Shown piece after piece: positions 5,291-60,772 of a stretch of 64,000 bases of DNA. The stretch spans positions 2,681,001-2,745,000 of the forward strand of contig NZ_CP025791.1 of the NCBI RefSeq assembly GCF_002886045.1, in the 5' to 3' direction. The notes below the pieces were generated by a model, which was not told the origin of the DNA, did no database searches, and worked only from the letters and a program-made list of their open reading frames with translations. The translations under genes and the position numbers were made by a program. Source of the stretch: Flavivirga eckloniae (lineage in GTDB: Bacteria > Bacteroidota > Bacteroidia > Flavobacteriales > Flavobacteriaceae). How positions within the stretch are numbered: position 1 is the stretch's first letter; each line of letters begins with the position of its first letter.

Positions 5291-5364
5291 CTCCTCTTCT
5301 TGGGCTCGAACCAAGGACCCTCTGATTAACAGTCAGATGCTCTAACCAACTGAGCTAAAGAGGA
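5291..5364 (-). tRNA. tRNA-Asn (GTT)
   Basis: On the minus strand a 74-nucleotide cloverleaf can be drawn. The acceptor stem TCCTCTT pairs with AAGAGGA, the D-arm is AGCTCAGTTGGTTAGAGC, the anticodon stem TCTGA pairs with TCAGA around the loop CTGTTAA, and the T-arm CTTGG TTCGAGC CCAAG follows. The loop places GTT at positions 34-36, which reads Asn codons. The discriminator base is G and no CCA is encoded. Confidence 0.95.
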
Positions 5365-31026: not shown

Positions 31027-31197
31027 AGAAATACCACACGATTTAAAGTGTGTAACTTCGTGTCAATTAAAATGCTAAGAATAAAAAAATGTATTTAATA
31101 AAACGGATAGAGGTTTTTATGTTATGATCAGCTTGAAAAGTTAAAAACTCTGTGTAATCACTATCAGCTACAAACTGGTAGCAAAAACCAAATTAGC

Positions 31198-31593
31198 TTA
31201 TCTGTTCTCAATATCATTAATATGATGCTCTAAAGCTTTTACTGAAATTTGAATTTCCCAAATTAAAAAAGCCAAAGAAAATATTAATAAAATAAGAGCT
31301 AAACCAAATACCCAAACCGCAATAGTATGTTGTTGTATGTAAATTAAAAACATGGTAAGTACACAAAATAACAAACTGGTAATCCCAAAAATTTGCATAG
31401 AGCGGGTTAAATATAAGCGGTGTTTTATATTTTTTATTTGAGCCATTAAAACGGAATCCTTTTCCTTTTGATACTTATCGTGCAAGTTTCGTATTATAGC
31501 TGCATAAGCCAAAAATCTATTGGTGTAAGCCAGCATAATTAAAGATATTGCCGAAAATAATAGAGCAGGAGTTGTTAAGGTTAGTTCATCCAT
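31198..31593 (-). CDS. DUF2721 membrane protein
   Basis: A 131-residue membrane protein with three hydrophobic segments (about residues 8-28, 68-88 and 90-113) separated by a charged loop containing IRNLHDKYQKEKDS and IKNIKHRLYLTRSMQ. This matches the DUF2721 family. No function is known. It lies apart from its neighbours by 246 and 83 bases. Confidence 0.78.
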   Translation of the reverse strand: MDELTLTTPALLFSAISLIMLAYTNRFLAYAAIIRNLHDKYQKEKDSVLMAQIKNIKHRLYLTRSMQIFGITSLLFCVLTMFLIYIQQHTIAVWVFGLALILLIFSLAFLIWEIQISVKALEHHINDIENR

Positions 31594-31676
31594 GATTAAT
31601 ACGTTTTGTACAAAAAACTAAATTATTAATTCCATTTTATAATCGAGTGTTTTTAACTCTGGATTTAGAAGTTTTT

Positions 31677-49791: not shown

Positions 49792-50502
49792 ATGCCAATA
49801 ACAAGATCTGAAAGCGGTCCTAACTTAGAAAATTGGATTGTTAATTTAGGGGATGGGAATTATACATCACCAGGAGAAGCTCCTGCATCAATTACAGACA
49901 TTACGACTGTAAACAAAACCAAAAGATCTATTCTTGAAGCTAACATACATAATAGAAGGATCATGGTGCATAATATAACCTTTCATAAGATAGTAGATCC
50001 TACAGCTTTAACAGATGTTCACAAGGCTACTTATAAATTTAAGATTCCTTATACTATTAGTACGGCAAATACAGATTTTAATGGCCAAACGGTTGAAGGA
50101 GGTCTTTTTGTATGGGATGGCCCAACAACCGAGCTGGATTATGGTTTGGCTTTTCAATGGGTTATTAACCCTTGGGATCCTGAGTATAAAAACTTGTTTT
50201 ATTGGGATGGAAATGGTTGGCAACCATTAGGCGTTAGTTTGGAGCCAAATAATAAATATCATGTGGTTGAATATTATTTAGATATTCCAAATTCTGAAGC
50301 ATACCTAACAATAAACGGCATTACATTCGCCCAAAATGTCTTCTCACAGACAACAAAAGAAGGTTTTGGCACAACAGTAGATGCAAGGTTTCAAGCCGAA
50401 ACTATAAGTATATTTCCACCAGAAACAGGAACAATTCCTTCTCAAAAAGTAAACTTTAAAGACTGGACATGGGATTGGTTTAACGATAATGTTTCGGTAT
50501 AA
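49792..50502 (+). CDS. Hypothetical beta-rich protein, 236 residues
   Basis: The protein has no signal peptide and is rich in Thr, Asn, Trp and Gly. It contains alternating strand-like segments (KATYKFKIPYTIST, GLFVWDGPTTELDYGLAFQWV, LFYWDGNGWQPLG, HVVEYYLDIPNSEAYLTINGIT), which suggests a jelly-roll or lectin-like beta-sandwich. I do not recognise the family. It has a clear promoter and is on the strand opposite to its neighbours. The position next to the PUL could mean a glycan-binding role, but this is only a guess. Confidence 0.65.
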   Translation: MPITRSESGPNLENWIVNLGDGNYTSPGEAPASITDITTVNKTKRSILEANIHNRRIMVHNITFHKIVDPTALTDVHKATYKFKIPYTISTANTDFNGQTVEGGLFVWDGPTTELDYGLAFQWVINPWDPEYKNLFYWDGNGWQPLGVSLEPNNKYHVVEYYLDIPNSEAYLTINGITFAQNVFSQTTKEGFGTTVDARFQAETISIFPPETGTIPSQKVNFKDWTWDWFNDNVSV

Positions 50503-50528
50503 CCACTGTTATTTTTAATGAATACTTA

Positions 50529-51005
50529 TTAATGCTGGTAGCAACGTCCGCCACCTTTTACTTTTCTTTTGCAATACCCACCAGATTTGGTACGCGCACC
50601 ACAGGTAGACGTTGTAGTTTTAGAATAACCTGAATGTTTACGTTTTGAAGAACTATTTTGTTTGGTATGCTGATAGCAATAACCATTTGCAAGCTTGGTT
50701 TTATGTTTACATCTTGTACCTTTTTGGGTATATCCTTTACATCTTACAGACGATGATGTTCCAACAGCTTTATTTGAAGCATTATAACTGCTAACATAAT
50801 TGTTTATAGAAGGTGGCTTACAAATTTTGCAAGGTGTTAAACGGTATTTCGATATATCTTCATTACCCAAGAGTTTTTTAGATACATTTTCAACCATCCT
50901 ACATGATGACAAATGATATCTTTCTCCTGATGGTGTTTTATATATATTCTGAGCATTAACATTTATATATAAAACAAAGGAAACGAAGAAAATCATGTAC
51001 TTCAT
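50529..51005 (-). CDS. Secreted Cys-rich protein with zinc-binding-like motifs
   Basis: A 158-residue protein with a signal peptide (residues 1-18, ending NVNAQ). Its N-terminal part has a YHLSSCRMV...LTPCKIC pattern (about residues 30-65), which resembles the Cys-based metal-binding motif found with some secreted nucleases. It then has two copies of a C-x7-8-C...CYQH motif: RCKGYTQKGTRCKHKT...CYQH (about 89-113) and CGARTKSGGYCKRKV...CYQH at the C-terminus. These resemble DUF5763-type repeats and may bind zinc or stabilise a small domain. An XRE 3'-end relic lies upstream (51180-51215). Confidence 0.65.
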   Translation of the reverse strand: MKYMIFFVSFVLYINVNAQNIYKTPSGERYHLSSCRMVENVSKKLLGNEDISKYRLTPCKICKPPSINNYVSSYNASNKAVGTSSSVRCKGYTQKGTRCKHKTKLANGYCYQHTKQNSSSKRKHSGYSKTTTSTCGARTKSGGYCKRKVKGGGRCYQH

Positions 51006-51309
51006 AAATATATTTTTTAAATCAACCTGAATGCTACAAGTTTTAATTTATAGTACTTGTTACAAACGAACGGTAACTCGACAAGTAGGTTTTATCAAGT
51101 AAACTTATGCCAGCACTTGTTAAAAAGGTTACTGTATTGAACTGGCTAGGGTATTTATTTTCTTATAAAAAATCAAATATAAGAAATCTCTTTCGGTAAA
51201 GATAAGCTTATTAAAACAAGTACAAACAAGACTAAATAATCAAAAAACTGGAGCTAACACAAACGCCCTATGCTTTTTATACATTACCTACAGGCTTTTA
51301 TCCTGTTCC
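51006..51309. repeat. Spacer with an XRE-gene 3'-end relic
   Basis: This 304-base spacer has no gene. It contains ACTTGTTACAAACGAACGG (51055-51073) and, at 51180-51215, a minus-strand segment reading FTERDF in the frame of an XRE regulator end. Bases 51182-51200 match 54642-54660 almost exactly, including the shared AATCTCTTTCGGTAAA. A further related AACAAGACTAAATA lies at 51225-51238. Confidence 0.55.
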
Positions 51310-51768
51310 CTATTTATTATTCCAGCTCCATAAACCAAAATTAACAGATTTACTTATTTTCAAATCGTTTCTTGCTATAATAGTCATTATTTGTCCTCTG
51401 TGATGTGATTCGTGAGCAATCATTTGGGCAAAAAAGGCTGTAGGATGTGGCTTGTAACCTTTAATACTTTCTTGTTCGAATAACTCATATAAAGTATCTC
51501 TCATTTTTTGTGATGATTCTTGTAGAGCTTCAATAAGTTGCGATTTCTTATTTGCATATTTCTTATTTATTTTCAAATCAATTTTTTCACCGACTTTATT
51601 AATCCAAAAGGAACGTATATTGTTAATGTGCACAAATTGTTCTCCTATACTTCTTCCTTTATCGTTTAGTTTTGTAGGTAACCAATCTTCTTCGATATTA
51701 TCGAGTAAGTACAAAGTAACCTTATTGTTTTGATTCCAAGAATAGATTATGTCTGCTTTAATATTCAT
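51310..51768 (-). CDS. DinB-superfamily protein
   Basis: A 152-residue four-helix DinB-like protein with histidines in FVHINNIRSFW (about residue 48) and AHESHHRGQIMTII (about residue 120), the expected metal triad. It resembles DUF1572/DinB proteins. It is the last gene of a three-gene cluster with a SnoaL-like gene five bases upstream and a TetR gene that overlaps that gene. Confidence 0.8.
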   Translation of the reverse strand: MNIKADIIYSWNQNNKVTLYLLDNIEEDWLPTKLNDKGRSIGEQFVHINNIRSFWINKVGEKIDLKINKKYANKKSQLIEALQESSQKMRDTLYELFEQESIKGYKPHPTAFFAQMIAHESHHRGQIMTIIARNDLKISKSVNFGLWSWNNK

Positions 51769-51773
51769 AAATT

Positions 51774-52124
51774 CTAACTTTCTTTAAAAAACCCAGTAAT
51801 CTGTTTGAGTTTGTCATTTTCGTAAAGGACAAAACTTGAACCACTACTAAGAACCTCATTATTATCGTTAACCATATTCCAATTTACTAAACATCTATTG
51901 TGATGAGTATTGATGTATGTAGTGATAAATGAAGCATCTTCAAATTGTTCTTGAAACTGTTTCATATAATCTGATAGTTGTGCATAACCTACTACTTCAA
52001 AGTTTGGGTCTTTATATTCAAAGTCATCAGTTAGAATTTTTTGTAATTTTTCTGCTCGTTGAACTGAGTTGGTTTCATTCCAACAGGTTCTATATATATC
52101 CCATATTTCGTTAATTGTTTTCAT
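51774..52124 (-). CDS. SnoaL/NTF2-like small protein
   Basis: A 116-residue cone-fold protein: helix-rich INEIWDIYRTCWNETNSVQRAEKLQKIL, then a beta part (DDFEYKDPNFEVVGY, CLVNWNMVNDNNEVLSSGSSFVLYEND). This is typical of SnoaL-like or nuclear-transport-factor-2-like proteins that bind small molecules. It overlaps the TetR gene by 14 bases. Confidence 0.75.
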   Translation of the reverse strand: MKTINEIWDIYRTCWNETNSVQRAEKLQKILTDDFEYKDPNFEVVGYAQLSDYMKQFQEQFEDASFITTYINTHHNRCLVNWNMVNDNNEVLSSGSSFVLYENDKLKQITGFFKES

Positions 52125-52701
52125 CAGTTTTAGTTTTTAATGAGTTTAGAAATGAGGTCATTAATAAATGACCAGAATCTTTTGTGCCTTTTGACCTAGT
52201 TAAGAATCCGAAAAATGTGGTATGGATTATTTCGGTTAGTATACTTGAACTAATAGCATTGCTTAAATCTCCATTTTGCTGTGCATCTTTTACTGTGGGT
52301 TCAATAACTTGCAAAAAACTATTAAACTGTTGTGCAGATAATTCGGCAATAGCATTGTTTGAAGAACCCATTTCAGACATTATGTTGTTTACAAGACAAC
52401 CTTTGTAATTATTCTCAATCTGAGAAGTGAGCATATTTTTATATAGTTCAATCAATTTGTCAAACGCTTTTAACTTGCTGGATTTTAATTCATTTTGTAA
52501 ATGAGAAACTATTAACTCTCCATACGCATTAATGGTTGTTAGTAGAAAAGACTCTTTACTTTCGAAAGAATTATAAAAAGCACCTTTAGTCATTCCTGTT
52601 TCTTTACATATCTCATTAATACCCAAATTATGAAATCCTTTAGCCCAAAAGAGTTCCATACCTTTCTTTATTACTTTTTCTTTATTGTGTTTGTAGTTCA
52701 T
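52111..52701 (-). CDS. TetR/AcrR-family repressor
   Basis: A 196-residue repressor with an N-terminal TetR helix-turn-helix (ELFWAKGFHNLGINEICKETGMTKGAFYNSFESKESFL, about residues 17-54) and a helical ligand-binding domain. Its gene is first in a cluster with SnoaL- and DinB-like genes. A palindromic ACCGTTCGGT (52723-52732) lies 21 bases upstream of its start and may be its operator. The inducer is unknown. Confidence 0.88.
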   Translation of the reverse strand: MNYKHNKEKVIKKGMELFWAKGFHNLGINEICKETGMTKGAFYNSFESKESFLLTTINAYGELIVSHLQNELKSSKLKAFDKLIELYKNMLTSQIENNYKGCLVNNIMSEMGSSNNAIAELSAQQFNSFLQVIEPTVKDAQQNGDLSNAISSSILTEIIHTTFFGFLTRSKGTKDSGHLLMTSFLNSLKTKTDENN

Positions 52702-52722
52702 ATCGTAAAATTAAACAAACAG

Positions 52723-52732
52723 ACCGTTCGGT
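52723..52732. promoter_or_regulatory. Candidate TetR operator
   Basis: ACCGTTCGGT, within ACAGACCGTTCGGTACA, is a near-palindrome 21 bases upstream of the tetR start codon. TetR-family operators of this ACCG/CGGT type, lying just in front of the repressor's own gene, are common. Confidence 0.5.
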
Positions 52733-52801
52733 ACAAATTTTAATCCAAATATTTCAGAATGATGAAGTTTTTTAGCTTGCAGCTAACGGTTGGCTATGGT
52801 T

Positions 52802-52912
52802 TTGTTGCTTAATTCTATAAGTTTATGAAAAAGCCCAGTCCATAATTCAGCTGTGGTGGTTTTCCAAAGGAAAATCAGAAACAATAAACTATAGCTCTCG
52901 TTCTACACTGGC
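52802..52912. repeat. Spacer with a boundary hairpin
   Basis: The spacer upstream of TetR holds GGTTTTCC (52858-52865) pairing with GGAAAATC (52869-52876), with one wobble. It follows GCTAACGGTTGGCTATGG (from 52782). No gene is seen. Confidence 0.35.
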
Positions 52913-53413
52913 TTATCTTTTAGGCAAGATATTCTGCTTGTTTAATATCCCATCTTTTGTTGTTACATATAGGAAATAATCGGCTAGTCCAAGCTTATTA
53001 TTTATATTGATTTTAAGCTCAATGAATTTAACATTCTCGTCTGTTGATTTTAATTTATAGCTTAGTGATTTCACAACACCCTTATTAACCACTTGAAACA
53101 ATTTTGGATCAGAAATATCCCCTATAACCATAGATGCCATTTCATAAGCTTCTTTATACATGTTCCCATATCGCATTATTCTTCCGTGAAGTATTGGAGC
53201 AACATATCCTTTTTTTAATAAATAGTATGCCCCTGAACCATTTTTCATTGACACAATAATATCATTAGCGATTCTATCCCCAGCCATTTTTAATGTTTTG
53301 TCAACACTTTCTAGCGGAATTTTCTTTGGCTCGTTTGAACAGGAAATGGTCAAACTCAGAACAAGTACTAAAAATGTTTTTGTAAGTTTTACATTTTGAT
53401 AAAAGTTGTTCAT
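52913..53413 (-). CDS. Hypothetical lipoprotein, 166 residues
   Basis: The leader is LVLVLSLTISC with the likely lipidated Cys at residue 25. The mature part is helical and mixed (LESVDKTLKMAGDRIANDIIVSMKNGSG, MYKEAYEMASMVIGDIS) and ends in a strand pair FIELKININNKLGLADYFLYVTT. I do not recognise a family. It is a single gene between two long spacers. Confidence 0.65.
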   Translation of the reverse strand: MNNFYQNVKLTKTFLVLVLSLTISCSNEPKKIPLESVDKTLKMAGDRIANDIIVSMKNGSGAYYLLKKGYVAPILHGRIMRYGNMYKEAYEMASMVIGDISDPKLFQVVNKGVVKSLSYKLKSTDENVKFIELKININNKLGLADYFLYVTTKDGILNKQNILPKR

Positions 53414-53579
53414 TTTAATCTGGGCTTTATACTTGTGTACAACGGTTTGTGTAAGATTAGTAATTGGCTATGCAAACGGCTGATTTTTCAAACGGAAACC
53501 AGTTGCTAAATGAGCAATTACCCTTTAAATTTAGATACAAACCAAAATTATTAATTTTATACTTTATTGTGAAGTGTTT
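53414..53579. repeat. Spacer with a 7-bp inverted repeat
   Basis: The 166-base spacer contains GTAATTG (53460-53466) paired with CAATTAC (53515-53521), with CAACGGTTTGTG at 53441-53452 and CAAACGGCTG, CAAACGGAAACC inside. The shape vaguely recalls cassette recombination sites, but no integrase is known here. Confidence 0.35.
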
Positions 53580-54359
53580 TCATTTTGATTTTTCATTTCC
53601 TAAAAAAAAGTCATTTACTAAATTATAAAATTTCTCAGATACTTCAATCATTGGCCAATGACCTATTCCTTTTAAGAATATATTAGGGATCTTTTTCTCT
53701 TCAATGAATCTTTGCGTTTCAACAGGGGTATCTTTATCGCCCCAAATATATACTTTCGGACATTTTAAATCTAAAAATTCAATACCTGGCTTGTTTTGAG
53801 AAATAATTTTTTCTGTTGATTTCCCCCATTTATATAACGAGTCTATGTTGGCAAAATAGATACTTGCTAGATATCTTCTAAAGTCTACTCTACTTTTGGA
53901 GTTCTCGATTACAGAAGTAAGATATTTTCTATAAAACTCTTCTTTTGAATTATGGATTGGTAAAGATGAATAATAACTATCCTTTGTGGTTAAGTTGCCC
54001 TCAATACTCACATAACCATTTATTTTTTCTCCAAAATACTTGCAGAGTGATGTCCCAATTATTCCAGAGACGGAATGTGCAACAATGTATAAGTTTGAAT
54101 CAGGAGAAATTTCATTAATTAACTCTTTAAGTTTTTCCGTGAGTTGTTGGACTGATAAAGGATTATCATTATTGGGACTTACTCCAAACCCTGGTAAATC
54201 AGGAACAAATATATTAAACTTATTTTTGAGTTTTGACTCAAAAACTTCTCTATAACATAAGCCTGATTCTCCAAAAGGGTGAATTAACCAAATATCTCCA
54301 ATAGGATTTTTTATTTCGTTCAATCGGAAAAAAACATTATTGATTATATTGATTCTCAT
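53580..54359 (-). CDS. Alpha/beta-hydrolase fold protein
   Basis: A 259-residue hydrolase. The nucleophile elbow is AHSVSGIIG (about residue 95), the acid is in GDKDTPVETQ and the histidine in GIGHWPMIEV; an oxyanion-hole HPFGESG follows the first strand. It has no signal peptide, so it is cytoplasmic. The substrate cannot be read. It lies downstream of a long spacer that holds an XRE 3'-end relic (54621-54665) and a strong hairpin. Confidence 0.85.
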   Translation of the reverse strand: MRINIINNVFFRLNEIKNPIGDIWLIHPFGESGLCYREVFESKLKNKFNIFVPDLPGFGVSPNNDNPLSVQQLTEKLKELINEISPDSNLYIVAHSVSGIIGTSLCKYFGEKINGYVSIEGNLTTKDSYYSSLPIHNSKEEFYRKYLTSVIENSKSRVDFRRYLASIYFANIDSLYKWGKSTEKIISQNKPGIEFLDLKCPKVYIWGDKDTPVETQRFIEEKKIPNIFLKGIGHWPMIEVSEKFYNLVNDFFLGNEKSK

Positions 54360-54429
54360 ATTTGCCTAAGTTTTTGTCTGTTATGAATTAAGATAATGTG
54401 CTCTGGTCTTTCTCTTTCTGGAATGCTTT

Positions 54430-54670
54430 ACAACAATTGTATAAACACACTTTATGGTATTTATTCTCCTTATATTAACAGATAAGCATAATAAGATGCG
54501 TTTATTTCTATTTAATACACAAATCAAATATAAGAATATCCTTCAACCCTAAGCAGCATTAAATTCTTAACCTAAGTTTATACGAAAATGTTACTTTTTA
54601 TGCGCTGTTTGTGAAGTCTGCTAAAACACATTAGAATCAAAGAAATCTCTTTCGGTAAAAATAACTTATT
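54430..54670. repeat. Spacer copy A of a duplicated block (XRE gene 3' end plus downstream)
   Basis: About 220 bases (54430-54650) match about 57905-58132 at roughly 80% by eye. Shared stretches are TACGAAAATGTTA, GCTGTTTGTGAAGTCT, AAATTCTTA and AGAATCAAAGAAATC. In the native copy this block is the 3' end of the XRE gene plus its downstream spacer. Here it stands without the rest of that gene. On the minus strand, 54621-54665 encodes a relic ending FTERDFFDSNVF and then a stop. Confidence 0.7.
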
Positions 54671-54704
54671 AAACAAGACTAAATATTCAAACCGATGGTG
54701 CTTA

Positions 54705-54742
54705 TTGTATAGAATGATGTTCCTGAACATCATTCTATACAA
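54705..54742. repeat. Strong perfect hairpin
   Basis: An 18-bp perfect inverted repeat (54705-54722 and 54725-54742) is separated by only CT, so it would form a very tight hairpin or cruciform. No T run follows, so it does not look like an ordinary terminator. It is directly followed by TTTAGCGGGAGCGGA (54743-54757), a motif that recurs at 56789-56803. Confidence 0.75.
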
Positions 54743-54792
54743 TTTAGCGGGAGCGGATCTTAACCCTTATGCTTATACTATATTAGCAAAAG

Positions 54793-55470
54793 TTACTTGT
54801 TAAATTTAGTTTTTTCAAGATTGATTGTTTTTGAAATAGCATTTGAAATAGAGTTTGCAAGATTTTCATATTCAGGTGGCGTTTTCCATTTACCTTTAAT
54901 TTTCTCAACTGAATCTGAATAGCCCTTAAAAACAATAGAATTATCCGTTAAATCAATTATTTCAGAGGCAATATGGCTATTGCCCTTTTTTCCAGTTTCT
55001 ATCATTCCGTAATAACTTACCAAAAGCCCATAACTAACGCTTACTATTAAAAGTTCATCAACCCCCTTATCTTTAAGTGAACGTAAATCATACTTATGAT
55101 ATTTTTTCTTCGAGGATGATGGCTTTTCAAACTTTTTGAGTTTTTTAACGTCGTAATCAAATTGAATTTCTTTCAATGGTTTTCCTTTTGCACTAAATAT
55201 ACCCTCATATAAACCCTTTATTTCATTAGTTGGATTTATTTTTTTGTCTACAATTTGCAATGGTTCTTTAAATCGCTTTCCTGGGGTTAAAGCTACATCA
55301 AGCAAACCTTGTGATCCTTCCCGATAAACTCTAATTGAATCAATTAAATAAACTACTCCAACTTTCTTTTGATTTGTATAATAATTGTCTGAAAGTGGCA
55401 TTTTCACAGCACAACTACTAATTGTTATTAATATTATTATTAGTCCTAAATTTCTAAAAATTTTATTCAT
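54793..55470 (-). CDS. Hypothetical lipoprotein, 225 residues
   Basis: The leader NLGLIIILITISSC is followed by Cys20 as lipidation site. The mature part contains VGVVYLIDSIRVYREGSQGLLDVALTPGKRF, a lysine-rich loop, and VDELLIVSVSYGLLVSYYGMIE with a final helix YENLANSISNAISKTI. The layout is reminiscent of envelope lipoproteins that carry a GNA1162- or DUF799-like fold, but I cannot assign it. It is a single gene. Confidence 0.65.
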   Translation of the reverse strand: MNKIFRNLGLIIILITISSCAVKMPLSDNYYTNQKKVGVVYLIDSIRVYREGSQGLLDVALTPGKRFKEPLQIVDKKINPTNEIKGLYEGIFSAKGKPLKEIQFDYDVKKLKKFEKPSSSKKKYHKYDLRSLKDKGVDELLIVSVSYGLLVSYYGMIETGKKGNSHIASEIIDLTDNSIVFKGYSDSVEKIKGKWKTPPEYENLANSISNAISKTINLEKTKFNK

Positions 55471-55634
55471 TTTGTTTTTAATTTAATCATTCTTTAAAAA
55501 CCAAACCACTGGTTTTAAGGCAATTGCACATAGCGCTGAACTTTTGTGAACCTCTAGATATTTGTTGTTGAAATACTCATGCTTTTCGTTTAAGCAATTC
55601 TTTTGTTTATAATACCTTCCACTTTTAAGCTAAG

Positions 55635-56213
55635 CTAGTTTGGAAACACAAAACTCACTGATAAACCTAAAGCATTTGCATTATAGGTTTCCTCAAAACC
55701 ATCTTTATACTCCATAAGTGTATAGCGTAAACCTATCCATCTCCAGGCTAACTCAAACATTAGCCCACTTGCATTATTAAAATTGATATTATCTCCTAAT
55801 CCGTCTGCGTCAAACTTAATACCAGTCTGCATAGCAAGTCCTGTTCCAATACGAATGTTGTTTGTAATCATCCAATTGGCGGTTAAATTAATCGGTACTC
55901 GGGTCAAGGCCATATCCGCATTACTAGCCCTTACTGTCAAAATTTTGTAACCGATCCAACCCCTAAACTTCAGTTTCTGCATTTTAGGAACAGTGAATTC
56001 ACCTCCAATACCAATAGAAACTCCTTGGCCAGCATGAACCGACTTTACATCACCATCAGTATAGTATACTTCTGCAACAGCATCACCACCAAATTCGCCA
56101 GTAAAATCAATTAATGCTCGAAAAGACCGGGATGTGTTTTCACTCTGTGCATAAGTATATGATGAATAAAGGCTCAGGCATAATAAAATATAAATAGGTC
56201 GTTTAATTCTCAT
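55635..56213 (-). CDS. Small outer membrane beta-barrel protein
   Basis: A 192-residue protein with a signal peptide (to TYAQ, residue 22) and alternating amphipathic strands (FRALIDFTGEFGGDAVAEVYYTD, LKFRGWIGYKILTVRASNAD, FELAWRWIGLRYTLMEYKD), ending in SVSFVFPN. This is the pattern of an eight-strand outer membrane barrel. The family is not identified. It may be co-oriented with the tiny ORF 56333-56467 upstream. Confidence 0.7.
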   Translation of the reverse strand: MRIKRPIYILLCLSLYSSYTYAQSENTSRSFRALIDFTGEFGGDAVAEVYYTDGDVKSVHAGQGVSIGIGGEFTVPKMQKLKFRGWIGYKILTVRASNADMALTRVPINLTANWMITNNIRIGTGLAMQTGIKFDADGLGDNINFNNASGLMFELAWRWIGLRYTLMEYKDGFEETYNANALGLSVSFVFPN

Positions 56214-56332
56214 AAGAATATTTATTTTGTAAATAAAAATTTGATGTATTTTCTCTTTGTTAAGTAATCGTTATTTCGTTTTTCTATGGCGCCAAATTGA
56301 ATAGTTTGACCAGATTTTATTTCAATCTAAGG

Positions 56333-56467
56333 CTATTGAACTTCGTTAGCAGCATTAATTTTCATGATACTTGGTGAAGGTGTATCACCATTAGAAGAAG
56401 AAAAAATTAAAGAAAATACAAAAACAAGCGTAACGTCCTTTAAGGTTTTTTTAAAATAGAATTTCAT
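56333..56467 (-). CDS. Small exported peptide or gene relic, 44 residues
   Basis: On the minus strand an ATG at 56467 opens a 44-residue frame with a leader-like KFYFKKTLKDVTLVFVFSLIFSS, then SNGDTPSPSIMKINAANEVQ and a stop. It could be a small secreted peptide, or the first part of a decayed gene. The leader is the only support, so confidence is low. Confidence 0.3.
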   Translation of the reverse strand: MKFYFKKTLKDVTLVFVFSLIFSSSNGDTPSPSIMKINAANEVQ

Positions 56468-56684
56468 AAATAGATTAATTTGATTTGGAGCAGTAAATGT
56501 ATAAAAACGATCGTACGCAAATCTTGACTTAGGTTAATAAAGGCTGTGATACGTTACGAATAACTTCGAATTAATATAACTAACTCTAGTTACAAAATAG
56601 AGGTAGCAGAATCCCTCTTTATAGTATGCTTATTTCTTACTCAATCTCGGCACCCGATATGGTCGAGCGCTAGCTTGAGGGCAT

Positions 56685-56762
56685 TCAAAACAAATCAGAA
56701 TCGAAAAATTCCCTCAAGGAAATATCAATCATCTTACAGAACTGGTTTATGGTATGGATTGA
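56685..56762 (-). pseudogene. 3' fragment of an XRE regulator gene
   Basis: The minus strand encodes, in frame to a TGA at 56685-56687, a 25-residue end that matches the C-terminus of the intact XRE gene at 58105-58350 at 22 of 25 positions (differences Arg to Gln, Asp to Glu, Met to Leu). Shared phrases are FCKMIDISLR and FFDSD. Similarity stops abruptly at 56763. It has no start or helix-turn-helix, so it is a remnant. Confidence 0.85.
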
Positions 56763-56874
56763 GACACAAAGAACACCACTAAACACAGTTTAGCGGTAGC
56801 GGAGGAGTGATAAATTTTTTATTATTTATATTCATTACGATTTTTAGTAATTTATATTTCTGAAATTTGTCAAT

Positions 56875-57870
56875 TCAGAGTTTTGTTATTCGTTTAAAAA
56901 CCGCATTTATTGTGTCAAGTCTCATATCACTATAGCTTTTTAGTTTTTTATATAGACTTAAATGTTCTTTTAAAAATTCTCTATTGTACTTTTCTAATTC
57001 CTTTTCAGTATCATTAATAGTTTCTATAAGTGCCAAATTAATTCTCTTGTCGATTGCTGAAAGTTCATTAATTACCTTAAGCATAATTTTTTCTGATCTA
57101 TAATACTCTATAAATGCTTCTGGATCATAATGCCAAGGATTTTTTTCAAAATCATTTTCCATCATATACAAATAACCCGAATTACGTAAAAATTCTGTTA
57201 TCTCATTGTCATATTCGGGATGATTTATTATTAGTTCATGTAATTGGTCGAAAGTTTGAATATCTTGATTAGAAATTTTTCGTGCTTCTGCAAAAATAGA
57301 ATTATGAATTTCTATTTGAGTTTCCAGAGGACTATCGCTTTGGGCATATTTTATTTCTCTTTCTGAAGCTTTTCTTACCACACCTTTGACCTCACTTAAA
57401 AATTTTGAATTTAGAATATCATTTGGTGTTGGATAATTGAAATTCTTAACAATATCTACACCAGCTGAGTGATAAGCTTGAGTTACAAAACGAGTACAGA
57501 ATTGTCTATTTACTTCTTTCGGTTCTAATGAAGTTCCATTTTCCAAAACTTGAATGGCTTCATTTAGCGAATATGCTGTACCTATTTTTTGACGAGCAAA
57601 CAGTTCAATTTTGTTTAATATATCTATTTGATTTGAATTAATTAAGCGAAGCACGATAATATCATCTTCATTATCAAATATTAATCGTTGGATATTATGA
57701 GCTTGCACCCCAGGTCCATCTGAATCTATATAGCTTGATCCCCCCATATAGAGTATAGCGTGAGAAAATTCACTATCCGACTTTTTTCGAATAATCCTAC
57801 TTAACCGAGAGTCCGATTTCATTAAAATGATATCACCAGATTTTAGTATTTCTTTTTTAATCAAATACAT
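56875..57870 (-). CDS. YiiX-like permuted NlpC/P60 hydrolase with helical extension
   Basis: A 331-residue protein. The N-terminal 165 residues match a permuted papain-like (YiiX/YebB) hydrolase: GDIILMKSDSRLSRIIRKKSDSEFSHAILYMGGSSYIDSD holds the His, and NRQFCTRFVTQAYHSAG the Cys. The rest is long, charged and helical (EARKISNQDIQTFDQL, LMKVINELSAIDKRINLALIETINDTEKELEKY). Family members cleave amide bonds in peptidoglycan or lipid-linked peptides. The long helical tail is unusual and may bind a partner. It lies 234 bases downstream of the intact XRE regulator gene. Confidence 0.75.
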   Translation of the reverse strand: MYLIKKEILKSGDIILMKSDSRLSRIIRKKSDSEFSHAILYMGGSSYIDSDGPGVQAHNIQRLIFDNEDDIIVLRLINSNQIDILNKIELFARQKIGTAYSLNEAIQVLENGTSLEPKEVNRQFCTRFVTQAYHSAGVDIVKNFNYPTPNDILNSKFLSEVKGVVRKASEREIKYAQSDSPLETQIEIHNSIFAEARKISNQDIQTFDQLHELIINHPEYDNEITEFLRNSGYLYMMENDFEKNPWHYDPEAFIEYYRSEKIMLKVINELSAIDKRINLALIETINDTEKELEKYNREFLKEHLSLYKKLKSYSDMRLDTINAVFKRITKL

Positions 57871-57904
57871 TAGTTAACTCTCTATATTAGGTTTTGTGCA
57901 ATTA

Positions 57905-58132
57905 CACAAAGCAATTGTTTAAACACACTTATGATCTTTATTCCTCTTATATTACCGGATAAACATAATAAAAGTGCATTTATTTCTATTATACAAAAAT
58001 CAAATATAAAAAATATCCTTCGTTCCTAAGCGACATTAAATTCTTAGCCTAAGTCTATACGAAAATGTTATTTTTTGTTTTGTACGCTGTTTGTGAAGTC
58101 TCTGTTAAAACATATCAGAATCAAAGAAATCC
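57905..58132. repeat. Spacer copy B of the duplicated block
   Basis: This is the native position: the region downstream of and including the last codons of the XRE gene. It matches 54430-54650 at roughly 80%. Both share a run of spacer features (AATTCTTAGCC/AACCTAAGT, TATACGAAAATGTTA, CTGTTTGTGAAGTCT). It marks how the two sites are related. Confidence 0.7.
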
Positions 58133-58350
58133 CTCAAGGAAATATCAATCATCTTGCAGAACCGGTTTATGGTATGGATTGAAACCCCTCTTTTATCGTT
58201 TACACTTTCCCAACGGCTTACAATCTGCCTATCTATAAAGTGAGTTTCAGCAAATTTCGATTGACTTAAGCCAGTTTCTTTTCTTAACTGCTTTATTCTT
58301 AGAGCAATTTTTTTGTTAAATGCAATATCTTCAGGTTTCAATTTAGACAT
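58105..58350 (-). CDS. XRE-family helix-turn-helix regulator
   Basis: An 81-residue protein with an XRE domain at about residues 18-70 (LRIKQLRKETGLSQSKFAETHFIDRQIVSRWESVNDKRGVSIHTINRFCKM). It ends in DISLRDFFDSDMF. It is the only full copy; three partial copies of its 3' end lie in the 51-57 kb spacers. It transcribes toward the YiiX-like gene, and is divergent from a plus-strand promoter at 58391-58423. Confidence 0.85.
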   Translation of the reverse strand: MSKLKPEDIAFNKKIALRIKQLRKETGLSQSKFAETHFIDRQIVSRWESVNDKRGVSIHTINRFCKMIDISLRDFFDSDMF

Positions 58351-58390
58351 ATTGCAATTTTCACTTTATATAAAGAAATATTGTAAGCCA

Positions 58391-58423
58391 TTTGGTTTAC
58401 AAATAATTATTTCGTTATATTTG
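58391..58423 (+). promoter_or_regulatory. Plus-strand promoter divergent from the XRE gene
   Basis: TTTG (58391-58394) and TATATTTG (58416-58423) are separated by 21 bases, matching the -33 and -7 elements of Bacteroidota promoters. Transcription would begin near 58430 and run into a structured, ORF-poor segment (58440-58700). Confidence 0.55.
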
Positions 58424-58429
58424 TAGTTA

Positions 58430-58700
58430 AATACATATTTTTGCAATTCTTCTTTTAAAATATTGAAGCAATTGCTTTGAATCTCACCATTGAAAACTGG
58501 TAATTTTTGCGCTGAGATGATAAGCAGATTGGCTCACGAACCCGGGCGTGGGCTCTCTTATCGGTGCAAGGTATACCAGTACCCCAATGGCGGTAAGTTG
58601 AGATCCACGTCCTTTTGTTTCCAGACATTATGGACCTTAGTGCTAAACTCATATGTACTGAACTTCCTGAACTAAATTCAGGATAGATGTTTCAGTATCT
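58430..58700 (+). ncRNA. Candidate structured RNA segment
   Basis: No convincing gene is seen. Bases 58511-58612 are about 54% GC by eye, against a very AT-rich surrounding. GATAAG (58518-58523) pairs with CTTATC (58557-58562), and the inner GGCTCACG (58531-58538) with CGTGGGCT (58547-58554) including wobble pairs. A palindromic AAGCAATTGCTT (58467-58478) lies upstream and TCCTGAA/TTCAGGA (58665-58671/58677-58683) downstream. It follows a promoter. An RNA role is inference; it could also be the remnant of a mobile element. Confidence 0.4.
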
Positions 58701-58734: not shown

Positions 58735-59118
58735 TTGCAATTTTTAAGTTTCACTAACGAAAAGAAAAATGTAACAGCTATTCTTATGGATAAAACAGAA
58801 GTCTTTATATCACCAAATGATTTAGTATTACCTCCCTATGCTACTATAACTGCTTTGATTGGATTACTCAACAGGTCTGGATTAACAGATAATGTTGTAA
58901 AACATTGTATAACGGGGTTAAAGGTTATTATTGTTATTCGTTTAGATAAGAGCTACAAAACTGGAACCGATCTTTTAGCAAGAAAGGAGTTTGATGAACT
59001 CTATGATAAATTCCCAGATATATATTTTAACAATAGGGAATCCATTCCACCAATTATGATTATTGAAAATATTCACCAATGTATTAAAACTGATAAGGTA
59101 ATTTATGTTGACAACTAG
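58735..59118 (+). CDS. Hypothetical protein, 127 residues
   Basis: The ORF starts at a TTG (58735); an internal ATG at 58786 (MDKTEV) is an alternative. The sequence is beta/alpha with VFISPNDLVLPPYATITALIGLL and KVIIVIRLDKSYKTG, ending in IIENIHQCIKTDKVIYVDN. I recognise no family. It lies downstream of the structured segment, possibly in the same transcript. Confidence 0.5.
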   Translation: MQFLSFTNEKKNVTAILMDKTEVFISPNDLVLPPYATITALIGLLNRSGLTDNVVKHCITGLKVIIVIRLDKSYKTGTDLLARKEFDELYDKFPDIYFNNRESIPPIMIIENIHQCIKTDKVIYVDN

Positions 59119-59563
59119 AGCCTTAAAGTATCTCGACTCATGATGCTTTTTGGCTCTTAAATTCCTGCGTGGTCACTGAGCGTAGTCGAAGTGGAGGCAG
59201 GAATCTCATAATCTGGAACTAGCATTAAATAAGATTCCCTGTCTGCCGCAGGCAGGTTCGCTTGCTTTGGCTCCGCTCAGTACAAATCGCTCTGAATGAT
59301 AAGTCAATTTATATCATTACGAGGAGCTAAGCAACGTGTTAATCTTGTAAATAGAAACGAGAATCAAATTAAACAAATTGTCACGGTCGTTCATCTCTCA
59401 CAATGATCTATTTTTTAAACCCTAAGTACTATAAAACCCATTCACCGGTAGATAACGAGGGATCGGGAAGGAATGATGGCTGTCTACCGGGTATATGGGT
59501 AATTGTAAGAATGTTTAAGATTCCTGCCTCCACTTCGACTACGCTCAGTGACCACGCAGGAAT
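59119..59563. repeat. Repeat-filled spacer framed by a 48-bp inverted repeat
   Basis: A perfect 48-bp inverted repeat spans 59159-59206 and 59518-59565, containing TCACTGAGCGTAGTCGAAGT and its complement. The right arm reaches the stop codon of the next gene. Inside lie a copy of the 21030-type repeat in inverse orientation (about 59236-59301), a CGTTACG-type piece near 59315, and the inverted pair CCGGTAGA (59443-59450)/TCTACCGG. No transposase gene is present. Confidence 0.85.
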
Positions 59564-60772
59564 TTAAAAGTATTTAGACAAACTAATCCTAAAAAAACTA
59601 TCGTCTTTAAAATTAGAGAGTATAAATTCGTTGGTGTCAATCGAACTAAAAATTCGGGCTTCTACCTCTGCTGTCCAACTGCTTCCAAAACGTCTGGATG
59701 CTTCCATGCTAAATATTTTACTGCTCGATTCTAAATCTGAAATACCTCCTATTAAAATTGAGGTGTCCTGCGTATCGTTAAAAGCAATTCTGCTTCCTAA
59801 AAACACATCGTTTTGCAATGCGTTTAGGGCTAGTTCGTCACGCTCATCGTACAGGTATTCCCCTAGTAATCCAATGTCTAATCCGTTACCATCAATATTA
59901 CTAAAGGTAAACTCCAAACCTGCTACCATGGCGAAAAAATCCTGTGCTTTAGAGGTTCGGTAAATAGACTCCAATTTCCAAAGGAAAGCATTGTGGGTAA
60001 TCTGTAAATCCAATCCTGTTTGATTAATTACCGGATAAAAAGCATTGATATTACCGAGTTGATCGAAGGTGAATAGAGGCTCCCTTCCGTTACCATAAAA
60101 ATGGGTTAGCCCTACATCGAAAGCACCAAAATAGTGTTTCCATCTAAAGGCAAGATCTTGCCGCCATTCCTCTGCACCACTTTCATATTGTAGATCGTCT
60201 TTATCTATAACCACCGGAAATCTTAAACGGCCTTTAGCGCCAGGAAATGTGCGCTTTCTATGATAGGGCAAATAAAAGAAATCGAAACTCCCCATTTTTT
60301 TGGTTGTATAGGTAAATTGAACCATGGGCTGCCCTAATTTATCCTCGCCATCAAACGACTCTACAGCATCTGTTTGGTTAATAATATCTACCAAATGATT
60401 ACTCTCTGCTACACCCCAATATATTTTTTTAAGCCCTATACTTAACTCCCAGTTCTTTTTTACTTTTTGATAATACAGTTCTCTTATATCCCAGTGGGTA
60501 CGTTCATCATCAACATCCAACCTCAAAAAACCAGTAAAATTAAATTGCTCGTAACCTTTATTCCAATCTAATGAATATTCCGGTGTAAAAGCTATAGACG
60601 GGAAATGTTGTTCCTGGTCGTTAAATGCGGCATCATCATAAAAGTATCTGTATTCTGCTGCTATTTCTAACTCGAAGTCCTGATTTATTTTCTTTTCTCC
60701 GCTTTGAGCATATAATATCCCACCACTTAAAAAAAGCATTAAAATGGTGGTTTTTAATCGTGTTCGATTCAT
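59564..60772 (-). CDS. Outer membrane beta-barrel protein of an export module
   Basis: A 402-residue protein with a signal peptide (to YAQ, residue 23) and many amphipathic strands with aromatic ends (FELEIAAEYRYFYDDAAF, WELSIGLKKIYWGVAESNHL, SFDFFYLPYHRKRTF), ending in DDSFFRISLSKYF. The pattern recalls DUF1302-type barrels that sit next to MMPL exporters. It is encoded after a LolA-like gene and an MMPL-type gene on the same strand, so a joint role in moving lipids or similar molecules to the outer membrane is likely. Confidence 0.78.
   Translation of the reverse strand: MNRTRLKTTILMLFLSGGILYAQSGEKKINQDFELEIAAEYRYFYDDAAFNDQEQHFPSIAFTPEYSLDWNKGYEQFNFTGFLRLDVDDERTHWDIRELYYQKVKKNWELSIGLKKIYWGVAESNHLVDIINQTDAVESFDGEDKLGQPMVQFTYTTKKMGSFDFFYLPYHRKRTFPGAKGRLRFPVVIDKDDLQYESGAEEWRQDLAFRWKHYFGAFDVGLTHFYGNGREPLFTFDQLGNINAFYPVINQTGLDLQITHNAFLWKLESIYRTSKAQDFFAMVAGLEFTFSNIDGNGLDIGLLGEYLYDERDELALNALQNDVFLGSRIAFNDTQDTSILIGGISDLESSSKIFSMEASRRFGSSWTAEVEARIFSSIDTNEFILSNFKDDSFFRISLSKYF

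Follow-up and report, generated by a model that had tools for sequence, protein, structure and literature searches.

The described systems closest to the locus analyzed here are transcription systems that combine an extracytoplasmic function (ECF) sigma factor with a nuclease-dead Cas12f (dCas12f), integron cassette arrays together with clusters of attC sites lacking integrase (CALIN), and defence-island hotspots that carry regulators. The locus lies in a 64,000-nucleotide (nt) stretch of the Flavivirga eckloniae genome (contig NZ_CP025791.1, positions 2,681,001 to 2,745,000), which we call the window and whose internal positions serve as coordinates below. It holds an intact gene for an XRE-type helix-turn-helix (HTH) regulator, three partial copies of XRE 3' ends among cargo genes and, next to the intact gene, a structured RNA gene. 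ECF sigma factors and dCas12f reportedly carry out RNA-guided transcription, according to a preprint that, like any other paper on dCas12f with a sigma factor, we did not find in the literature searched; an XRE/operator socket that can be swapped and carries cargo is not known to us from it.

Each of these systems resembles the locus in part. We compared 48 RNA-gene loci with matches of at least 60 bits, comprising the window, 19 loci from six multi-copy genomes and 28 reached through the XRE family. As in the ECF sigma/dCas12f system (PDB 9n9c series), the RNA homologs stand directly before an ECF sigma gene plus a 365-amino-acid (aa) protein in 13 of these loci or before a SusC-like gene in 20, whereas the window and the examined loci of its genus have a gene of about 110 aa in that place (12 of 48; the sets do not overlap, and 3 loci have none of these), and dCas12f is present in only one of 12 genus genomes. 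Integron arrays and CALIN share with the locus their one-strand units and unit-specific complementary ends, and perhaps the bounding of a shared cassette at a GTT edge, but here no IntI integrase exceeds its cut-off, the R box is non-canonical, a promoter-like box lies within the site and no consensus pair was obtained. Defence-island hotspots likewise hold variable cargo, partly defence genes, at a conserved boundary; the difference here is that a regulator and its operator appear to be exchanged beside one conserved RNA gene, and that what look like regulator scars remain.

We think it probable, as the best explanation overall, that the XRE ends are the scars which earlier regulators left at the head of an accretion hotspot next to a guide-RNA-like gene. 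That conserved gene, at 58438-58625, would be the hotspot's fixed end, and the socket beside it would take a divergent operator-plus-XRE unit; acting through a predicted operator, this XRE most likely represses both its own gene and the RNA gene. Each newly arriving operator-XRE unit, followed by its cargo, would enter next to the RNA gene; a displaced XRE would tend to lose its operator, persist as a second gene and then decay, so that the window retains only 3' ends. Behind the XRE, genomes of this genus have a one-strand cassette array; its units are joined at promoter-plus-palindrome sites and have integron-like ends, and a site-specific recombinase may act on it. Sequence comparison establishes an HTH-type gene beside nearly every RNA copy, a predicted operator particular to the XRE family, a change of cargo at the stop codon, tandem XREs and cassette ends. 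If the reading is true, sequence alone would reveal how unrelated repressors, each with cargo, took over a single promoter region one after another next to the gene for a CRISPR-derived switch RNA, and this would explain how CRISPR-derived transcription switches come under new control.

XRE 3' ends in the window

In the F. eckloniae genome, a single contig of 5.67 Mb, the intact XRE gene lies at 58105-58350 on the minus strand, encodes 81 aa with Pfam HTH_26 and HTH_3 over cut-off, and forms the head of the cargo side. The first partial copy (56687-56765, minus strand) keeps the last 26 codons, from codon 56 of the XRE, and matches the XRE 3' end at 91% identity over 79 nt (E=3.5e-25 in a whole-genome search); as protein, 23 of its 26 residues agree with the XRE end. 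The second (XRE tail 54621-54665 within 54431-54665, minus strand) comprises the tail, the head spacer and the second full copy (54431-54540) of a block described below. Its tail and downstream spacer match the intact copy at 83% over about 220 nt (E=5.4e-58, same search), and we read 54431-54665 as a buried former array head. The third and weakest piece (51153-51215, minus strand) is fused to a truncated block: 51153-51195, mostly spacer, matches the intact region at 87% over 43 nt (E=5.6e-6), and the region also resembles the second piece, with 68% identity at 51158-51191 and 81% at 51224-51255.

A preliminary description of this DNA had reported an intact XRE gene and three partial 3' copies, each upstream of an unrelated gene on the same strand. 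These pieces are real and lie far above chance: the genome-wide E-values rule out a common or random motif as their source. The intact gene and the three pieces share the minus strand and precede different genes, and all 10 genes of at least 75 aa between 50.5 and 58.4 kb are on that strand too. A shared spacer of about 220 bases had also been described, and this holds for the second piece and the intact copy. The first piece lacks that spacer; moreover, the spacer is not specific to XRE genes, since two further copies of its core, about 110 nt long, stand without an XRE end at positions 3598833 and 2998889 of the F. eckloniae genome. Read outward from the RNA gene, the order is the present XRE, then the first piece, of the same lineage, and then the second and third, apparently of another.

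Regulators beside the RNA gene

The structured RNA gene lies on the plus strand between the XRE and the 110-aa gene, and its approximately 190 nt are kept across genera. An alignment of eleven copies gave 44 consensus pairs, 12 of which show covariation in the form of double-sided changes with pairing kept. Our model of the element (R1) matches 38 of 199 family genomes, a set in which almost every genus has a single genome; within the F. eckloniae genome it matches 8 places, the last of them weakly. No copy compared with Rfam (window, L101, L102, L103 and L107) gave a gathering match, and the only such match in the window was a tRNA at 5291. The 365-aa protein noted above matches PDB 9n9c ('Nuclease-deactivated Cas12f') over its full length (E=1.2e-194). 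Because RNA homologs in other genera adjoin an ECF sigma gene and this dead Cas12f, the RNA gene is probably guide-RNA-like, and the element is probably the guide RNA of an ECF sigma/dCas12f-type transcription system or of a close relative.

Of 31 RNA-gene loci, 30 have a small divergent frame whose side and strand do not vary, most of these frames starting 85-105 nt from the RNA gene; the exception, L210, is also the weakest RNA match (28 bits). The queries behind this count came from these very loci, which makes it partly circular, and two further checks were made. In the first, against Pfam, 18 of the 30 head genes score at or above the cut-off for an XRE-type HTH family (L208 just equals it) and eight more give E<=0.01, for a total of 26; three others lie at E 0.05-0.07 and L213 has no match. 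In the second, which excluded queries from a gene's own locus, 29 of the 30 have a relative in another locus at E<=2.2e-9, the remaining one being L223. Some head frames may be decayed, as those of L209, L215 and L220 have no ATG near the beginning.

The association also holds in the reverse direction. The window XRE has five relatives that are 54-80% identical to it, and 30 further loci of its family were found in genome contigs (five of these had been used to build the query, and two lie on near-identical contigs). The RNA gene is upstream of the XRE in 28 of the 30 and adjacent in 25. Another gene stands between the two in L226, L231 and L251; in L231 and L251 it is XRE-type by Pfam, and in L226, where it has no Pfam match, it does resemble the head gene of L222.

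Between the XRE and RNA genes lies a predicted operator palindrome, TGTAAGCCATTTGGTTTACA (58382-58401), 32-51 nt before the XRE start and beside the RNA gene's TATATTTG promoter-like box. It differs by 2 mismatches from the family consensus, TGTAATCCANNTGGATTACA, which is found at up to 3 mismatches in 26 of the 31 loci that carry the window's XRE family and in none of 19 loci with other XREs (L254, whose match begins inside the gene, stands outside this test). In these 26 loci its distance to the start codon is constant within 1 nt; L226 and L251, two loci with a displaced XRE, lack the operator. These comparisons support a link between the window's XRE family and a putative operator beside the RNA gene. 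When the interval separating the head gene from the RNA gene was tested for palindromes against simple shuffles, only 19 of 48 loci gave a significant result, and the window did not.

Extra XREs or pieces of them follow the first XRE in 6 of the 31 loci; none was found on the other strand or on the other side of the 31 RNA genes. The extra genes of L110, L207, L209 and L213 all reach a Pfam HTH cut-off (4 of 4 scanned), and a fifth, found in G201, belongs to the type that heads the G019 locus and that reaches the cut-off as well. At L207, elsewhere in the F. eckloniae genome, two intact XREs are followed by a 26-aa C-terminal piece (E=4.5e-5, 47 queries), which by its sequence is a second case of a scar reduced to the 3' end. 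At the window's own locus, the relatives show the order RNA gene, XRE_A, block in G019; RNA gene, XRE_B, block in G199; and RNA gene, XRE_B, XRE_A, block in G201, which we read as an entry of XRE_B between the RNA gene and XRE_A. The present XRE and the pieces behind it in the window fit such a series. In partial support of the earlier interpretation, older XREs persist behind newer ones, intact or truncated, and relatives did not show full-length XREs at all sites with the same neighbours.

Plain tandem duplication, meaning repeated copying of the whole XRE gene or of its 3' half, then erosion of the copies, and no exchange of modules, would account for pieces that lie close together on one strand and for the first piece belonging to the present XRE lineage. 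It fits poorly with genes stacked in front that belong to other XRE families (L231, L251 and G201), with second and third pieces that look like another lineage, with similarity that ends at the stop codon and with cargo that differs across genomes behind the same XRE. We regard duplication as rather improbable.

Cargo and the array behind the XRE

Next-gene proteins behind the window's XRE family, called mechanically in the 25 of 30 family loci with a same-strand next frame and in the window, fall into 23 groups among 26, BLASTP joining only three pairs. At six orthologous XRE loci, similarity spans the XRE gene and ends, as judged by eye, at its stop codon. These results agree in part with the proposal in the preliminary description that a module was copied or exchanged at the regulator; its simple unit of regulator plus variable cargo gives way to a broader picture in which exchange of operator and XRE beside the RNA gene, a gene absent from that description, is apparently superimposed on a cassette array with a repeat of its own. 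A functional link between the XRE and its cargo is something that we infer.

Defence genes occur in the cargo. Five of ten hand-picked cargo proteins match PADLOC families (QatA, Aga/pAgo-type, type I restriction, HEC-05 and Cas9), Pfam matches include GmrSD, DrmE-C, Roc-COR-LRR and ABC-3C SMEK, and some defence-type cargo lies several kb behind the head gene. Such genes would be expected in an ordinary defence- or regulator-rich island, in which XREs would simply be widespread regulators of operons gained from elsewhere, with the RNA gene there by coincidence. The hand-picked set, however, shows no enrichment, the other five proteins, the window's amidase among them, having no PADLOC match; and incidental neighbours would not be expected to keep a near-constant head-gene spacing and orientation across HTH families or a fixed operator position. 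We consider an ordinary island distinctly improbable. In a separate observation, Cas9 stands directly behind the XRE and RNA-gene head at L100 (G208), where the two preceding genes look Cas1- and Cas2-like by eye.

The array behind the XRE is ordered by a block of about 110 nt. The first copy in the window (57910-58018, minus strand) lies directly behind the XRE spacer and joins a TATATTTG promoter-like box, which we take to resemble the Bacteroidetes promoter, to a four-box palindrome whose boxes read, by eye, ATAAACGC, GCGTTTAT, ATAAACGC and GCGTTTAT. In relatives the block recurs behind the head and between genes, with 52 matches, 35 of them complete, in the loci searched; under stricter filters, a model of the block matched 3 of 296 genomes of the order, F. 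eckloniae included. RNAalifold gave no consensus pair for 24 aligned copies, so a structure at the RNA level was set aside and we take the block for a palindrome in DNA that accompanies a promoter-like box. Genes of at least 80 aa lie on one strand in four arrays (22 of 22, 26 of 26, 16 of 16 and 18 of 19), the single exception being a frame antisense to XRE_A.

The units of these arrays have ends that recall integron cassettes. Those of G019 start with GTTG-N5-AT, and several end in the complementary NNNNCAACAA just behind the last stop codon. Over 28 units, start and end inverted repeats gave a true pairing score of 208, against a shuffled mean of 179.8 (sd 5.0, maximum 201; 0 of 20000 shuffles as high). 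A two-gene cassette common to G201, G208 and G019 seems to start at a GTT edge, with unrelated sequence upstream in G208; in the G201-G208 and G019-G208 comparisons of this one cassette, similarity begins at the TT or at the preceding G, the base before TT in G201 being A. GTT stands at 36 of 41 block edges, and GTTRRRY, which with RYYYAAC we take to be the attC R'/R'' consensus, at 1 of 41. None of 12 genus genomes has an IntI match (TIGR02249) over the curated cut-off, and neither has any of 14 control genomes, so this search lacks a positive control; the best TIGR02249 matches were split, without about positions 180-240. We rejected a canonical integron, and the array, which is integron-like, is not filed as an integron because no IntI exceeds the cut-off and GTTRRRY is found at only 1 of 41 edges. 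No description of integron-like arrays in Flavobacteria came up in the literature searched. A separate region in G203 (C29:215659-222808) contains four repeated 113-aa frames that match the C-terminus of a tyrosine recombinase and are spaced at kilobase intervals.

These cassette-specific end repeats, the shared cassette that seems to begin at a GTT edge with unrelated sequence upstream in G208, and the complete head spacer and block held by the second XRE piece would also suit a different origin of the XRE ends, as part of an integron-like recombination site behind which cassettes insert, carrying XRE ends along. XRE ends do not, however, stand in every array spacer, as the G019 spacers examined carry none; the scarcity of GTTRRRY and the lack of IntI over cut-off in the 12 genomes point the same way, and we judge this origin unlikely. 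The G019 spacers instead suggest that XRE ends mark former array heads, not every module.

Several observations weigh against reading the XRE ends as scars of takeover beside a guide-RNA gene. dCas12f is absent from the F. eckloniae genome and from 11 of the 12 genus genomes, so the RNA may have a different role here and the guide role of the window copy is putative. For the second and third pieces, no intact gene of their XRE lineage was identified. In L231 the XRE has been displaced as well, yet an operator remains there in degraded form (4 mismatches), and the orders seen in G019, G199 and G201 could have arisen from a state with both XREs, followed by losses. Some of the mechanically called next-gene frames, at 53-75 aa, may not be genes. 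As for the array, only 8 of the 28 units individually beat all but at most one control, an inverted repeat between start and end is not seen in the window's own unit, which 36 of 40 controls equal in score, and a search confined to TIGR02249 among recombinase families found no tyrosine recombinase near the F. eckloniae array.

The takeover reading can be carried further, though only tentatively. Interchangeable operator-repressor units would compete for the guide-RNA gene, each newcomer bringing its own repressor and operator and sometimes defence-type cargo; RNA-guided switching of outer-membrane receptor operons would be wired to the last arrival, displaced repressors would form a readable history of takeovers, and Flavivirga cargo would be stocked by an integron-like cassette system without IntI. 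Taken all together, we see this as possible but doubtful. Separately, if Flavobacteriaceae do have integron-like arrays that lack IntI, these would allow a test of which recombinase can build cassette arrays.

Cargo genes and surroundings of the RNA gene

Six stretches of cargo, all on the minus strand, lie behind the window's XRE. Nearest to it is a YaeF/YiiX-like permuted papain-like amidase (56875-57870; Peptidase_C92, Pfam PF05708, 6e-10), which is the amidase without a PADLOC match mentioned above. It is followed by open reading frames for a 192-aa protein (55635-56213), a putative barrel according to the preliminary description, and for a 225-aa protein that looks lipoprotein-like by eye and has no Pfam match (54793-55470), and by an alpha/beta hydrolase (53580-54359; Pfam Abhydrolase_1). 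Beyond these are genes for a TetR regulator, a SnoaL-like and a DinB-like protein (51310-52701, by Pfam) and a Cys-rich DUF5763 protein (50529-51005; Pfam PF19067). A second hairpin-rich spacer family with AACGGTT-type edges was seen by eye between cargo genes at 52760-52905 and 53424-53560. At 31190-31660, the region of a 131-aa gene is 92% identical over 472 nt to part of the G201 array, with different flanks; by this likeness, array material extends further left than 50.5-58.4 kb.

Downstream of the RNA gene, the conserved gene of about 110 aa (58786-59118, plus strand) has no Pfam match over cut-off. The next landmark is a gene that looks porin-like by eye (59564-60772), with a match in all 12 genus genomes. 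Beside it, G208, G199, G201, G203 and G019 have both the 110-aa gene and the RNA gene, and all of these but G203 have blocks. G200 has the 110-aa gene on a contig that ends soon beyond it, the G207 contig stops before the position of that gene, and in G204 it lies about 35 kb from the porin-like gene; G205, G202 and G206 have neither the 110-aa gene nor a block beside the porin-like gene. Between the two genes, the window carries a 53-nt inverted repeat (59154-59206 and 59518-59570) that is 98% complementary.

At the G201 locus (L126), an IS110-like transposase gene splits the RNA gene into two halves, and a related transposase gene, matching Pfam IS110 families, lies beside a partial RNA copy in G200 (L125). 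A frame of 83-88 aa follows the 110-aa gene in L211, G208 and G203. In L211 the match of this frame is to the N-terminal region of an ECF sigma factor, and the G208 and G203 frames look alike by eye, as if a sigma gene had been truncated.

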